From contig NZ_CP011789.1 of the NCBI RefSeq assembly GCF_001636055.1, positions 2,418,001 through 2,482,000 on the forward strand: a stretch of DNA of 64,000 nt, in the 5' to 3' direction. Below are positions 1,621 through 5,597 of this stretch, piece after piece. The notes beneath the pieces are model-generated. The model did not search any database. It was not told the DNA's origin and was given only the letters and a program-made list of their open reading frames with translations. The translations under genes were made by a program, and so were the position numbers. This stretch comes from Pseudomonas putida. GTDB taxonomy: Bacteria > Pseudomonadota > Gammaproteobacteria > Pseudomonadales > Pseudomonadaceae. The stretch's first letter is position 1. Each line of letters starts with the position of its first letter.

Positions 1621-1935
1621 TCAGCGGCGGCTGGCGAGCAGGCCGACCAGCAGCCCGACACCGGCTGCGATGCCGATGGCCTGCCATGGGTTTTCCTGTA
1701 CGTACTCCTCGGCACTGCCCAGCGCTGCCTGACCGCGCTCGCGGACCGAGTCCTGGGTCAGTTGCAGGCTTTCGCGGGCCTGCTGCAGGCGGTCGTGGAT
1801 CTGGCCACGCAGCTCGTCGGCCTGGTCGCCCGCCAGATTGGCGGTGTCGGCGAGCAATTTCTCGGTGTCGCGCACCAGTGCCTGGAAGTCAGCCATCAAG
1901 ATCTCTTGTGCAGTCTTTGCCGATTTGCTGGCCAT
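1621..1935 (-). CDS. DUF883 (YqjD/ElaB) family protein
   Basis: A 104-aa protein with a long amphipathic, likely coiled-coil region (residues 10-75, rich in Q, E, R and A) and a C-terminal glycine-rich membrane anchor ending VGLLVGLLASRR. This is the layout of YqjD/ElaB C-tail-anchored proteins, which in E. coli bind ribosomes and localise to the inner membrane in stationary phase. It is the first gene of the operon; GGGAGAG precedes the ATG. Family membership is clear, but whether this protein binds ribosomes is inferred from the family. Confidence 0.85.
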   Translation of the reverse strand: MASKSAKTAQEILMADFQALVRDTEKLLADTANLAGDQADELRGQIHDRLQQARESLQLTQDSVRERGQAALGSAEEYVQENPWQAIGIAAGVGLLVGLLASRR

Positions 1936-2247
1936 GGGGTCTCTCCCTGTCGATGTGTGTGGCTATTTCGAGTGATGAGTGTGGCGGAAGGTTCACCACT
2001 TGTCGCTGGTACGGCGTTTGCTTTGTTCTGCCGTGTCGCGGGGCGTCGATGCCGGGCGCTGCCCCGTCTGCGTGCAAGGCCCTGGCCGACACCGATAAAC
2101 CTTAACCCAATCCACGACAAACCCAAGAAAAAACCACTCCCTGTGTAGCCGCTCCCCCAAAACGGGGCGCACGGCAGGCACCGATCAGGTGCGCGAGCAA
2201 GGTTTCTGAACTGTCCTGGTGCACTTTTCAGCAGGTCTGCCCATTCC
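1936..2247. other. intergenic region between divergent yqjD-like operon and amt
   Basis: About 310 bp separate the divergent starts. The amt-proximal part holds an NtrC-like dyad (listed separately) and a GG...GC pair that resembles a sigma-54 promoter but has 11 rather than 10 intervening bases. No convincing small gene or terminator was seen. Confidence 0.5.
2178..2192. promoter_or_regulatory. NtrC-like binding dyad upstream of amt
   Basis: GCACC-N5-GGTGC is a perfect dyad matching the core of the NtrC (GlnG) enhancer consensus TGCACC-N5-GGTGCA. It lies about 55 bp before the ammonium transporter start, and a further half-site GGTGCA lies at 2218-2223. NtrC control of amt genes is well established in proteobacteria; binding here is inferred. 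Confidence 0.55.
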
Positions 2248-3456
2248 ATGGAAAACATGCATAGCGCGATGGACTCACTGGTCCATGGCTCCAACACCCT
2301 GTTCATCCTCATGGGGGCCATTCTGGTCCTGGCCATGCACGCGGGTTTCGCCTTTCTCGAGGTCGGTACCGTGCGGCACAAGAACCAGGTCAATGCCCTG
2401 TGCAAGATTCTCAGCGACTTCGCCGTCTCGGCGCTGGTGTATTTCTTCATCGGCTACTGGATCGCCTATGGCGTCAGCTTCTTCCAGCCGGCTGCGCAGT
2501 TGGCCAGCGATCATGGCTATGCCTTGGTCAAGTGCTTCTTCCTGCTGACCTTCGCTGCGGCGATTCCGGCAATCATCTCCGGAGGCATCGCCGAGCGTGC
2601 GCGTTTTGCCCCGCAGTTATGTGCCACCGCGCTGATCGTGGCCTTCGTCTACCCCTTCTTCGAAGGGGCGGTGTGGAACGGCAACCTGGGCGTCCAGGCC
2701 TGGTTGCAAGCCCGGTTTGGCGCACCATTCCATGACTTTGCCGGTTCGGTGGTGGTGCATGCCATGGGCGGCTGGCTCGCGCTGGCTGCCGTCATCCTGC
2801 TCGGTGCCCGTCGCGGACGGTACCGTGATGGACGGCTGGTGGCTTTCGCTCCTTCCAGTATTCCGTTCCTCGCGCTGGGGTCGTGGATCCTGATCATCGG
2901 CTGGTTCGGCTTCAACGTCATGAGTGCACAAACCCTGGAGGGTGTCAGCGGCCTGGTGGCGATCAATTCGCTGATGGCGATGGTGGGCGGCACGCTCTCG
3001 GCCTTGCTGGTCGGGCGCAATGACCCGGGCTTCCTGCACAATGGCCCGCTGGCCGGATTGGTGGCGGTGTGTGCCGGTTCCGATCTCATGCACCCGGTTG
3101 GCGCGCTGGTGACCGGGCTGGTGGCGGGAGCACTGTTCGTGTGGTGCTTCACTGCCTCGCAGAATCGCTGGAAAGTCGACGATGTACTTGGCGTATGGCC
3201 GCTACATGGTGTATGCGGCGTTTGGGGCGGTTTGGCGTGCGGTATCTTCGGCCAGTCGGCGCTCGGAGGGCTGGGCGGTGTCAGCCTGGCGAGCCAGTTG
3301 TTTGGCAGCCTGGCAGGCGTACTGGTGGCCTTGGCTGGTGGCTTTGCCGTGTACGGTCTAGTCAGGGCGGTACATGGTTTGCGCTTGAGCCATGAGCAGG
3401 AGTTCCAGGGGGCGGACCTGTCCCTGCACCGTATCGGCGCTACCAGTCAGGATTGA
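2248..3456 (+). CDS. amt: ammonium transporter, AmtB family
   Basis: A 402-aa inner-membrane ammonium channel with about 11 hydrophobic segments. It carries the family twin-histidine pore: H171 in VVVHAMGGW and H320 in WPLHGVCGVWGG. The conserved AFLEVGTVRHKN and SGGIAERARF blocks are also present. Unlike typical AmtB it has no obvious cleaved signal peptide, and its N-terminus resembles the shorter Amt subgroup. No glnK (PII) gene is adjacent on either side, whereas glnK-amtB is the usual pair, so this is probably a secondary Amt. An NtrC-like dyad lies about 55 bp upstream, suggesting induction under nitrogen limitation. The start at 2248 lacks a strong ribosome site; an in-frame ATG at 2257 is an alternative. 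Confidence 0.93.
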   Translation: MENMHSAMDSLVHGSNTLFILMGAILVLAMHAGFAFLEVGTVRHKNQVNALCKILSDFAVSALVYFFIGYWIAYGVSFFQPAAQLASDHGYALVKCFFLLTFAAAIPAIISGGIAERARFAPQLCATALIVAFVYPFFEGAVWNGNLGVQAWLQARFGAPFHDFAGSVVVHAMGGWLALAAVILLGARRGRYRDGRLVAFAPSSIPFLALGSWILIIGWFGFNVMSAQTLEGVSGLVAINSLMAMVGGTLSALLVGRNDPGFLHNGPLAGLVAVCAGSDLMHPVGALVTGLVAGALFVWCFTASQNRWKVDDVLGVWPLHGVCGVWGGLACGIFGQSALGGLGGVSLASQLFGSLAGVLVALAGGFAVYGLVRAVHGLRLSHEQEFQGADLSLHRIGATSQD

Positions 3457-3524: not shown

Positions 3525-3761
3525 ATGCTGCCTGAATGCCAATTGTTCGGCACCTTGGGGTGCCATTTGTGTGAAGTCGCCGAGGCTGTGTTGATGCCGT
3601 TCGTCGAGCACGGGCTGTGGGTCGAATTGGTTGATATCGCCGATGATGAAGCCATGTTCGAGCGTTACGGCTTGATCATCCCTGTCTTGCGTCGCTGCGA
3701 CAGCGGCACCGAACTGCTCTGGCCGTTCGACGCGCAGCAGGTGGCGGCGTTCCTCAAGTGA
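3525..3761 (+). CDS. glutaredoxin-like thiol protein (DUF836 type)
   Basis: A 78-aa single-domain thioredoxin-fold protein. It has a CxxC redox motif at C13-H-L-C16 (GCHLCEVAEAVL) directly after the first beta strand, and a cis-Pro strand IIPVLRRC near residue 52. This is the short glutaredoxin-like DUF836 type common in gammaproteobacteria. Its substrate is unknown; thiol-disulfide exchange in the cytoplasm is inferred from the fold. A TAGAAT box about 35 nt before the ATG could be a -10 element. Confidence 0.8.
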   Translation: MLPECQLFGTLGCHLCEVAEAVLMPFVEHGLWVELVDIADDEAMFERYGLIIPVLRRCDSGTELLWPFDAQQVAAFLK

Positions 3762-3851: not shown

Positions 3852-4283
3852 ATGTTTCTTACGCCGAACTTCACGCTCGAAGAGATGACGTTTTCGCTGG
3901 CCGCCGCGCACAACGCTATACCCAACGATCCCGGTCCCGAGGCTTTGGCCAATCTGCGCTTGCTGTGCGGGGTGCTCGAAGAGGTGCGAGCCTTGATCGA
4001 CTCCCCGATCCAGATCACCAGCGGTTTTCGCAATGAAACCGTCAACCAGCTTGTGGGCGGCGTGCGCAACAGTGCGCATTGCCTCGGCCTGGCGGCCGAC
4101 ATGTGCGTGAAAACGATGACGCCCCGGCAACTGGCCGAATGCATTCGCGACAGTTCCATTGTGTTCGATCAACTGATCCTGGAGTTCGACACCTGGGTTC
4201 ACCTGGCCATTTCACGCGACAACCCCAGGCGCCAGGTAATGACTGTTCGCAAGGGGACCGGCCACCTGCCAGGCTTGCAATGA
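3852..4283 (+). CDS. M15 family D-Ala-D-Ala type peptidase (phage endolysin-like)
   Basis: A 143-aa single-domain zinc peptidase of the M15_3 type, the compact form common in phage endolysins and prophages. Zinc and catalytic residues are visible: H76 (SAHCLGLAADM, with D83) and H117 (WVHLAI), after the TSGFRNETVN block. There is no signal peptide or membrane segment, so export would need a holin or lysis. GGGG at 3841-3844 lies 7 nt before the ATG. No other phage structural or lysis gene is adjacent, so it is either a domesticated remnant or a genuine cytosolic family member. The next gene downstream carries a LexA-like box, consistent with a phage or SOS origin. Confidence 0.8.
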   Translation: MFLTPNFTLEEMTFSLAAAHNAIPNDPGPEALANLRLLCGVLEEVRALIDSPIQITSGFRNETVNQLVGGVRNSAHCLGLAADMCVKTMTPRQLAECIRDSSIVFDQLILEFDTWVHLAISRDNPRRQVMTVRKGTGHLPGLQ

Positions 4284-4320
4284 GCTGTTGCGAATTGACG
4301 GAATGGCCACGGTATTCGTA

Positions 4321-4340
4321 TGCTGTATAAAGATACAGTA
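4321..4340 (+). promoter_or_regulatory. LexA (SOS) box
   Basis: The 20-mer TGCTGTATAAAGATACAGTA has the invariant CTGT-N8-ACAG core and an AT-rich centre. It differs from the E. coli LexA consensus (TACTGTATATATATACAGTA) at only three positions. It ends 14 nt before the ATG of the 102-aa gene at 4355, where LexA binding would block initiation. Confidence 0.8.
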
Positions 4341-4354
4341 TTTGGGGTGAGGCG

Positions 4355-4663
4355 ATGCACAATGTCGAGCAACTGAAGTACAGCGTCAACCGCATGCCCC
4401 CGGAAGCGGTGTGCGATGCGGTGCTCGAGCTGCGCATGGAGGGCTTGGTGACCGACGACCGTACTCCGTTCGGCAAGGTCCATTTCAATACCTGCTTTGC
4501 CGAGATCGAGGCACTGTTCCAGCGCGCAGGGTTTCATCGCCCGCTGGATGTCGTTGGCTACGAGGGGGTGGTCTACGCCCTTTATGATGCCGGACGCTGG
4601 GAGGCGGTGCAGGTGTTGCGCTGGCTCAAGTCGCGTTGTGAGCAAGTTGGCGAGGCTGGTTGA
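4355..4663 (+). CDS. unknown 102-aa protein with LexA-box promoter
   Basis: I do not recognise a named family. The product is a soluble 102-aa protein, mixed alpha/beta in composition, with no signal peptide, membrane helix or metal motif. It has an NRMPPEAV segment near residue 12, a single early Cys (VCDAV), the segment GKVHFNTCF in the middle and a helical, tryptophan-containing tail (RWEAVQVLRWLKS). GGGGTGAGG precedes the ATG. A 17/20 match to the LexA consensus overlaps the expected promoter, so it is predicted to be induced by DNA damage. It lies between an M15 peptidase and a pseudouridine synthase, all on the same strand. It may correspond to one of the small uncharacterised LexA-regulon genes known in pseudomonads, but I cannot confirm which. 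Confidence 0.75.
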   Translation: MHNVEQLKYSVNRMPPEAVCDAVLELRMEGLVTDDRTPFGKVHFNTCFAEIEALFQRAGFHRPLDVVGYEGVVYALYDAGRWEAVQVLRWLKSRCEQVGEAG

Positions 4664-4712
4664 GTGAGCGGGCATTGGCGATAATGCCCGCTCATTGATT
4701 ACAGAGCCTGCC

Positions 4713-5597
4713 ATGTCCACGCCGTTCGACCCCGCTCACCAGCAAGCCAGTACCGTTTGTTTGCCGCCTGGCGATTGGAGCACGGTCCTCGATTGCCTGT
4801 GCGATCACTTCAAGGCGATTGGTCGTGACCAATGGCTCGATCGCTTCAGTCGAGGGCGAGTGCTGGATGCCGAGGGCAGGGCAGTGGCGGCCGATCTGCC
4901 TTATCGACGTGGCATGCGTCTGCATTACTTTCGTGAAGTCCCCAATGAAAAGCCCATTGCGGCGCAGGAAACGATCCTGCATTGCGATGAGCACCTGGTG
5001 GTGGCGGACAAGCCGCATTTCCTGCCAGTCACACCCACGGGCGAATATGTCGAGCACACCCTGCTTCGACGCCTGATCCGTCGTCTGGACAATCCCCATC
5101 TGGTGCCGCTGCACCGCATCGACCGGCATACGGCGGGGTTGGTGCTGTTCTCGTCCAATCCGCAGTCGCGCAGCGCCTATCAGCGGCTGTTTCCCGAGCG
5201 ACGCATCGACAAACGCTACCAGGCCATCGCTGCACCGCTGCCGACGCGGGAATTTCCGTTGGTGCACCGTAGTCGGCTGGAGCATGGTGAGCCGTTCTTT
5301 CGCATGCGTGAGGTCGAAGGGGTGGCGAACAGCGAGACCCTGGCCGAAGTCCTGGAGAAGAACGGTAACCTGTGGCGTTACGGGCTCTCGCCCGTGACCG
5401 GCAAGACCCATCAGTTGAGAGTGCACATGGCGGCACTGGGCGCCGCGATCAGCAACGACCCGTTCTACCCGACATTGCTCGAGGGCGAGGACGACTACGA
5501 GCGGCCATTGAAACTGCTGGCGCAAAGTCTCGAGTTCGACGATCCGCTGACGGGTGAAAAGCGGTATTTCCAGAGCCGTTTGAGTCTGGACTGGTAA
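4713..5597 (+). CDS. RluA-family RNA pseudouridine synthase
   Basis: A 294-aa cytoplasmic pseudouridine synthase. The catalytic motif PLHRIDRHTAGLVLF has its aspartate at D137. It is followed by the RLFPERRIDKRYQAI block and the C-terminal TGKTHQLRVHMAALG motif typical of RluA-type enzymes acting on rRNA or tRNA. The N-terminal 75 residues resemble a diverged S4-like segment. The exact uridine target cannot be read from sequence. I used the ATG at 4713 rather than an in-frame TTG at 4695, since neither has a strong ribosome site. A strong bidirectional terminator follows directly. Confidence 0.88.
   Translation: MSTPFDPAHQQASTVCLPPGDWSTVLDCLCDHFKAIGRDQWLDRFSRGRVLDAEGRAVAADLPYRRGMRLHYFREVPNEKPIAAQETILHCDEHLVVADKPHFLPVTPTGEYVEHTLLRRLIRRLDNPHLVPLHRIDRHTAGLVLFSSNPQSRSAYQRLFPERRIDKRYQAIAAPLPTREFPLVHRSRLEHGEPFFRMREVEGVANSETLAEVLEKNGNLWRYGLSPVTGKTHQLRVHMAALGAAISNDPFYPTLLEGEDDYERPLKLLAQSLEFDDPLTGEKRYFQSRLSLDW

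Follow-up and report, generated by a model that had tools for sequence, protein, structure and literature searches.

A probable SOS gene of the PA0922 type in Pseudomonas putida and its predicted winged-helix product

PA0922 and its orthologue in P. putida

In the SOS response the repressor LexA is removed by RecA-driven cleavage, a mechanism that is well established. The subject of this report is an open reading frame of 102 residues (positions 4355–4663, + strand), together with the LexA box in front of it, in a stretch of 64,000 nucleotides from Pseudomonas putida (contig NZ_CP011789.1, positions 2,418,001 to 2,482,000), referred to as the window. The closest described gene is PA0922 of P. 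aeruginosa, an organism whose SOS regulon comprises only about 15 genes according to passages in two articles (PubMed Central, PMC: PMC13114513, PMC12413089). The first of these passages also equates dinB with PA0923 (PMC13114513), and part of a further article, citing Cirz 2006, gives the name PA0922 to the gene divergent from dinB, describes a LexA box for it and counts it as a member of the LexA regulon (PMC8944484). Tabulated data list PA0922 at 3.7-fold with hydrogen peroxide (PMC1250226), and another table, which compares a rubB mutant, includes the gene (PMC12431658). With UV-C, all of 15 known SOS genes changed except PA1044 and PA1045, in a passage that does not name PA0922 (PMC12796719). 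Regulation of this gene by LexA is thus not new, and the contribution made here is to trace the box through the family. No functional study of PA0922 was found in the open-licence PMC literature, outside which most subscription papers lie.

The 102-residue protein is 73% identical over 97 residues to the PA0922 protein (WP_003086015.1), which is of similar length, and the reverse search of the P. aeruginosa protein against the genome that contains the window (expectation value, E, up to 10) returned this open reading frame as its sole match. Near full-length similarity and the sole genome match are the grounds for assigning it as the orthologue of PA0922. Gene neighbourhood, a helpful rather than a defining feature, differs: in P. 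aeruginosa the gene is divergent from dinB, with tRNA-Met in between and mprF near, whereas in the window it lies between a glutaredoxin-like gene (followed by an M15 peptidase gene) and an RluA-type pseudouridine synthase gene. Both orthologues are preceded by a LexA box with intact core, which scores 14/20 at 50 nucleotides from the start in P. aeruginosa and 17/20 at 14 nucleotides here. Counting genes on the P. aeruginosa block agrees with the designation PA0922, if dinB is PA0923 and alpR is, as we presume, PA0906. Taken jointly, these and the following data make it probable that this open reading frame is the counterpart of PA0922 in the P. putida group, that it belongs as a single-copy core gene to the SOS regulon of Pseudomonas under LexA control, and that it encodes a winged-helix effector, which may bind DNA in the damage response.

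The protein falls in no recognised family, as the earlier note on this sequence had stated: Pfam, NCBIfam and PHROGs gave no match up to E 1, and PADLOC none up to E 10. Where source annotations name the protein, they call it 'transcriptional regulator' or 'hypothetical protein'. YebG (PF07130) is likewise a small SOS protein, and in the same genome its box has a 16-base core identical to that of the box in the window; it is nevertheless a separate family, to which the 102-residue protein has no Pfam match. The uncharacterised protein PA2723 (PDB 6tcb), which is not named in the open-licence PMC literature searched, is only 10% identical and gave no sequence match at E up to 10.

As far as the genomes searched extend, the gene was found chiefly in the family to which the window belongs. 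When 298 genomes drawn evenly from that family were searched, 140 had it, spread over 5 of 19 genera; within the window's own genus the figure is 95/103. A search at the level of the order found it in 9/244 genomes, all nine of this same family, and one at the level of the class in 2/274, namely the genome of the window and a fragment with three stops. Among plasmids there was a single match, a P. aeruginosa record in which a chromosomal block stands on a megaplasmid record. The eight genomes of the genus that lack the gene all have the RluA-type gene; in three of their loci (L265, L266, L267) the glutaredoxin-like and RluA-type genes lie near each other, with neither the gene nor an intact-core box in the locus, and in L269–L272 no convincing glutaredoxin-like gene was found.

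The LexA box and its conservation

The LexA box at 4321–4340 (no strand assigned) reads TGCTGTATAAAGATACAGTA; its CTGT-N8-ACAG ends are intact, and it agrees at 17 of 20 positions with TACTGTATATATATACAGTA, which we take as the LexA consensus for scoring boxes. It ends 14 nucleotides before the ATG at 4355. Rescoring and the open reading frame call confirmed the box as the earlier note had described it, and the SOS control proposed there is borne out by the sequence and was already on record for the P. aeruginosa orthologue. A promoter scan identified one sigma-70-type promoter, TTGACG-18 nucleotides-TATGCT, at 4295–4324 (+ strand), with 0.2 expected from shuffled sequence. Judged by sequence position, its −10 element (TATGCT) overlaps the box, which is the layout typical of a LexA-repressed promoter. 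The CTGT-N8-ACAG core is expected by chance 0.91 times in a window of this length; position and core alone therefore prove little, and conservation had to decide.

Relatives of the gene were found 156 times in one-per-species genomes, and the best 80 of these 156 were kept for comparison of loci. An intact core lies within 200 nucleotides upstream of the gene in 80/80, at a distance from the matched start that ranges from 12 to 142 nucleotides, and in 71/80 TTGAC stands at the matching spacing ahead of it. The upstream stretch was also analysed in all 140 gene-carrying genomes of the family sample, and 127 of them show an intact core no farther than about 300 nucleotides from the gene; 126 of these boxes score at least 14/20, the remaining one, at 9/20, being probably due to chance. 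Ten of the other 13 genomes retain a box of 14–16/20 with one half-site altered. By comparison, the intact core turned up in 4/508 random 330-nucleotide windows sampled from the set's long loci and in 13/2800 single-base shuffles. The two sets probably have species in common, and related genomes do not supply independent counts. Since the distance to the start varies and the box persists in divergent loci whose gene neighbourhood has changed, it can be said that the box mostly travels with the gene. The earlier note had held that homologues lacking the box would speak against it; for the most part the opposite was found. Upstream position, promoter overlap and conservation in relatives together make the 102-residue gene a probable member of the LexA regulon.

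There are exceptions. Three of the 140 genomes have no box within about 300 nucleotides upstream. In two of them (loci L102 and L109) a box lies about 500 nucleotides upstream, ahead of a UmuD-like gene, and in L103 none occurs in the 3.3 kb of locus examined. Furthermore, locus L268, from a genome without the gene, has a 12/20 intact-core box at about position 2933, between the glutaredoxin-like and RluA-type genes, and it speaks against a simple rule by which box and gene occur together; it is perhaps the relic of a lost gene copy.

Elsewhere in the genome that contains the window, the CTGT-N8-ACAG core occurs at 45 places, as compared to 21 for the reversed pattern. Seventeen of the 45, chosen by resemblance to the consensus, were inspected, and genes were scanned beside ten. 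Known SOS genes have boxes scoring 18 and 17 (two SRAP genes), 16 (YebG), 15 (DinB) and 14 (LexA) out of 20, such that the box in the window ranks among the best of those inspected. A UmuD-like S24 gene is divergent from one of the two SRAP genes, and SulA is encoded right after lexA. Among the other genes beside boxes are a radical SAM gene (box score 18), a gene of glyoxalase type (16) and two DUF1654 genes (15; L163:1326-1562, + strand, and L165:963-1295, − strand), the latter two being, from their boxes, further SOS candidates. At L160:1-1260 (− strand) an open reading frame of at least 420 residues, with no Pfam match at E up to 0.01, starts about 4 nucleotides from a 16/20 box.

Predicted fold and possible modes of action

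An AlphaFold (AF2) model of the 102-residue protein was obtained with a predicted local distance difference test score (pLDDT) of 93.3 and a predicted template modelling score (pTM) of 0.83. DSSP assigned helices to residues 16–29, 41–46 and 48–57 and strands to 31–33, 64–69 and 73–78 of this model, which corresponds, as a prediction, to the H1-S1-H2-H3-S2-S3 topology of a winged helix. The earlier note had suggested both structure prediction and profile searches; the former thus gave a winged-helix model, the latter no family. Helices 2 and 3 fall within residues 37–61 (TPFGKVHFNTCFAEIEALFQRAGFH; codons at 4463–4537, + strand), a mostly invariant block in an alignment of 122 sequences, in which eight polar or cysteine positions are identical in 122/122. 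Invariant H43, C47 and H61 were considered as a candidate metal site. The protein is acidic, and inspection by eye shows no sign of either a signal peptide or a membrane segment.

From these features the following sequence of events can be envisaged. LexA bound at 4321–4340 would cover the −10 element of the TTGACG-18-TATGCT promoter; upon DNA damage, RecA-driven cleavage of LexA would free the promoter, and the soluble 102-residue protein would be made. It would fold as a winged helix, with the helix-turn-helix of residues 37–61 as its working surface, and would act in the damage response by binding DNA, either as a small repair accessory or as a secondary regulator. DNA binding as such is put forward tentatively, and the best-supported guess at function would be a protein of winged-helix fold that binds either DNA or a partner in repair. 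The gene is retained, usually with its LexA box, in 95/103 genomes of the genus while its neighbours differ between lineages; it is therefore probably of importance to cells that have to survive DNA damage, and the predicted fold and the invariant residues offer concrete starting points for testing.

A different use of the same fold is possible but doubtful, namely that the winged helix docks onto proteins and so manages a partner in repair (RecA, a UmuD-like protein or a Y-family polymerase, for instance), in the manner of DinI and UmuD, which act through contacts. The acidic character of the protein would suit such a role, and so would its gene neighbours in some genomes. In P. aeruginosa and in one related genome (loci L096 and L132) the orthologue is near dinB and divergent from it; it lies immediately 3' of a UmuD-like gene in genomes G132 and G185, and follows UmuC in G216. 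Yet dinB is near in just 2/141 loci, and when UmuD was searched for at E up to 1e-8, a UmuD-like gene came out beside the orthologue in 3/140 genomes (G132, G185, G216), while a UmuC search covering 46 genomes found UmuC adjoining it in one (G216). Such adjacency may just reflect clustering of SOS genes; three in 140 do not suffice to establish a connection with translesion synthesis, although they make it a testable rival. Docking would also agree with a weak resemblance of residues 2–33 to the C-terminal winged helix of RPA32 (RPA_C; E 0.0074, 2/17 members), a eukaryotic domain that serves to dock repair proteins, but in the PDB search this match has E about 1, below any usual cut-off, and it stops before the second half of the protein. 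The more specific proposal, under which the PA0922 proteins form an SOS factor of winged-helix fold, specific to Pseudomonas, that docks onto the translesion-synthesis machinery (UmuD/UmuC or DinB, in other species ImuB-DnaE2), is unlikely. If true, E. coli would have no known equivalent of such a polymerase manager, and the gene's position beside dinB in one lineage and beside umuD/umuC in another would testify to that link.

The earlier note had itself offered a cell-division brake, a lysis function in concert with the neighbouring wall hydrolase, or a prophage remnant under host control, and whereas the LexA control it proposed is supported by the sequence, these functional guesses are not supported. 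A brake or lysis function is very improbable. The hydrolase in question, a Peptidase_M15_3 protein (E 2.9e-20; 3852–4283, + strand), is indeed adjacent on the same strand and matched in 49/80 loci, but its gene, an open frame, precedes both the box and the promoter and is without a match in 31/80 loci as well as in the 21 divergent loci; it is thus not part of the SOS unit. Where present it shows a median identity of 56%, as against 82–85% for its neighbours (80 loci). The 102-residue protein, without visible export or membrane features, has no Pfam match up to E 1 to the SulA family (PF03846), and with a SulA of its own after lexA the cell would have less need of a second division brake, though one is possible. 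The peptidase resembles phage endolysins (phrog_894, E 4.9e-32), which bears out its description as phage-type, its lack of a signal peptide having been judged by eye only, and which is also the one feature in favour of a prophage remnant. That reading is largely refuted and retains next to no credibility, since the SOS protein matches no PHROG and nothing at E up to 0.1 in 50,697 phage records, the same two host genes flank it in 80/80 loci, and a chromosomal gene carried by 95/103 genomes of the genus is not what a prophage remnant would be. Equally hard to credit is a fortuitous box on which LexA is inactive: chance would supply nearly one core per window, but the box is conserved at shifting distances and in shifting contexts, and regulation of PA0922 is described in the part of the literature cited above (PMC8944484). 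A LexA-controlled, probably winged-helix protein that may act on DNA is the interpretation retained.

Flanking genes and further observations

The glutaredoxin-like (DUF836) gene at 3525–3761 (+ strand) is the conserved left neighbour and the RluA-type pseudouridine synthase gene at 4713–5597 (+ strand) the conserved right neighbour, both identified by Pfam and by locus comparison; together with the 102-residue open reading frame they keep the same order on one strand in 80/80 relatives. Shortly before the RluA-type gene, GATAATG at 4680–4686 is found in 75/80 loci and GATAAT in 80/80, and it is perhaps the −10 element of that gene's own promoter. In other lineages the gene stands beside other genes, the neighbours changing while the box usually stays.

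In the loci with umuD or umuC neighbours, the gene that immediately precedes the orthologue, in the same orientation, is in two cases the UmuD-like one (L102:1848-2276, L109 about 1854-2282, − strand), with the box before it and no umuC match in either locus; in L103 it is UmuC that lies directly upstream on the same strand (1854-3146, −). Aligned to E. coli UmuD', the L102 protein (1851-2276, − strand) has arginine at the first lysine position of the VKK motif. If this is the catalytic lysine, the protein may be incapable of self-cleavage.

A few database records deserve comment. The plasmid match (L281; NZ_CP131792.1, 660000–690000) comes from P. aeruginosa; the record is typed as a conjugative plasmid of 847 kb, and its content resembles an ordinary chromosomal block (gacS, dinB, PA0922, mprF, rimO, alpR, csrA); it looks like a chromosomal transfer or an assembly matter. 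Loci L034, L049 and L059, titled Pantoea sp. (two) and Paucimonas sp., show the Pseudomonas locus with identical gene order and are probably mislabelled. A 164-residue protein credited to the plant Ensete ventricosum (P0150) contains the glutaredoxin-like domain together with the sequence of the 102-residue open reading frame, and is probably Pseudomonas DNA within a plant assembly.
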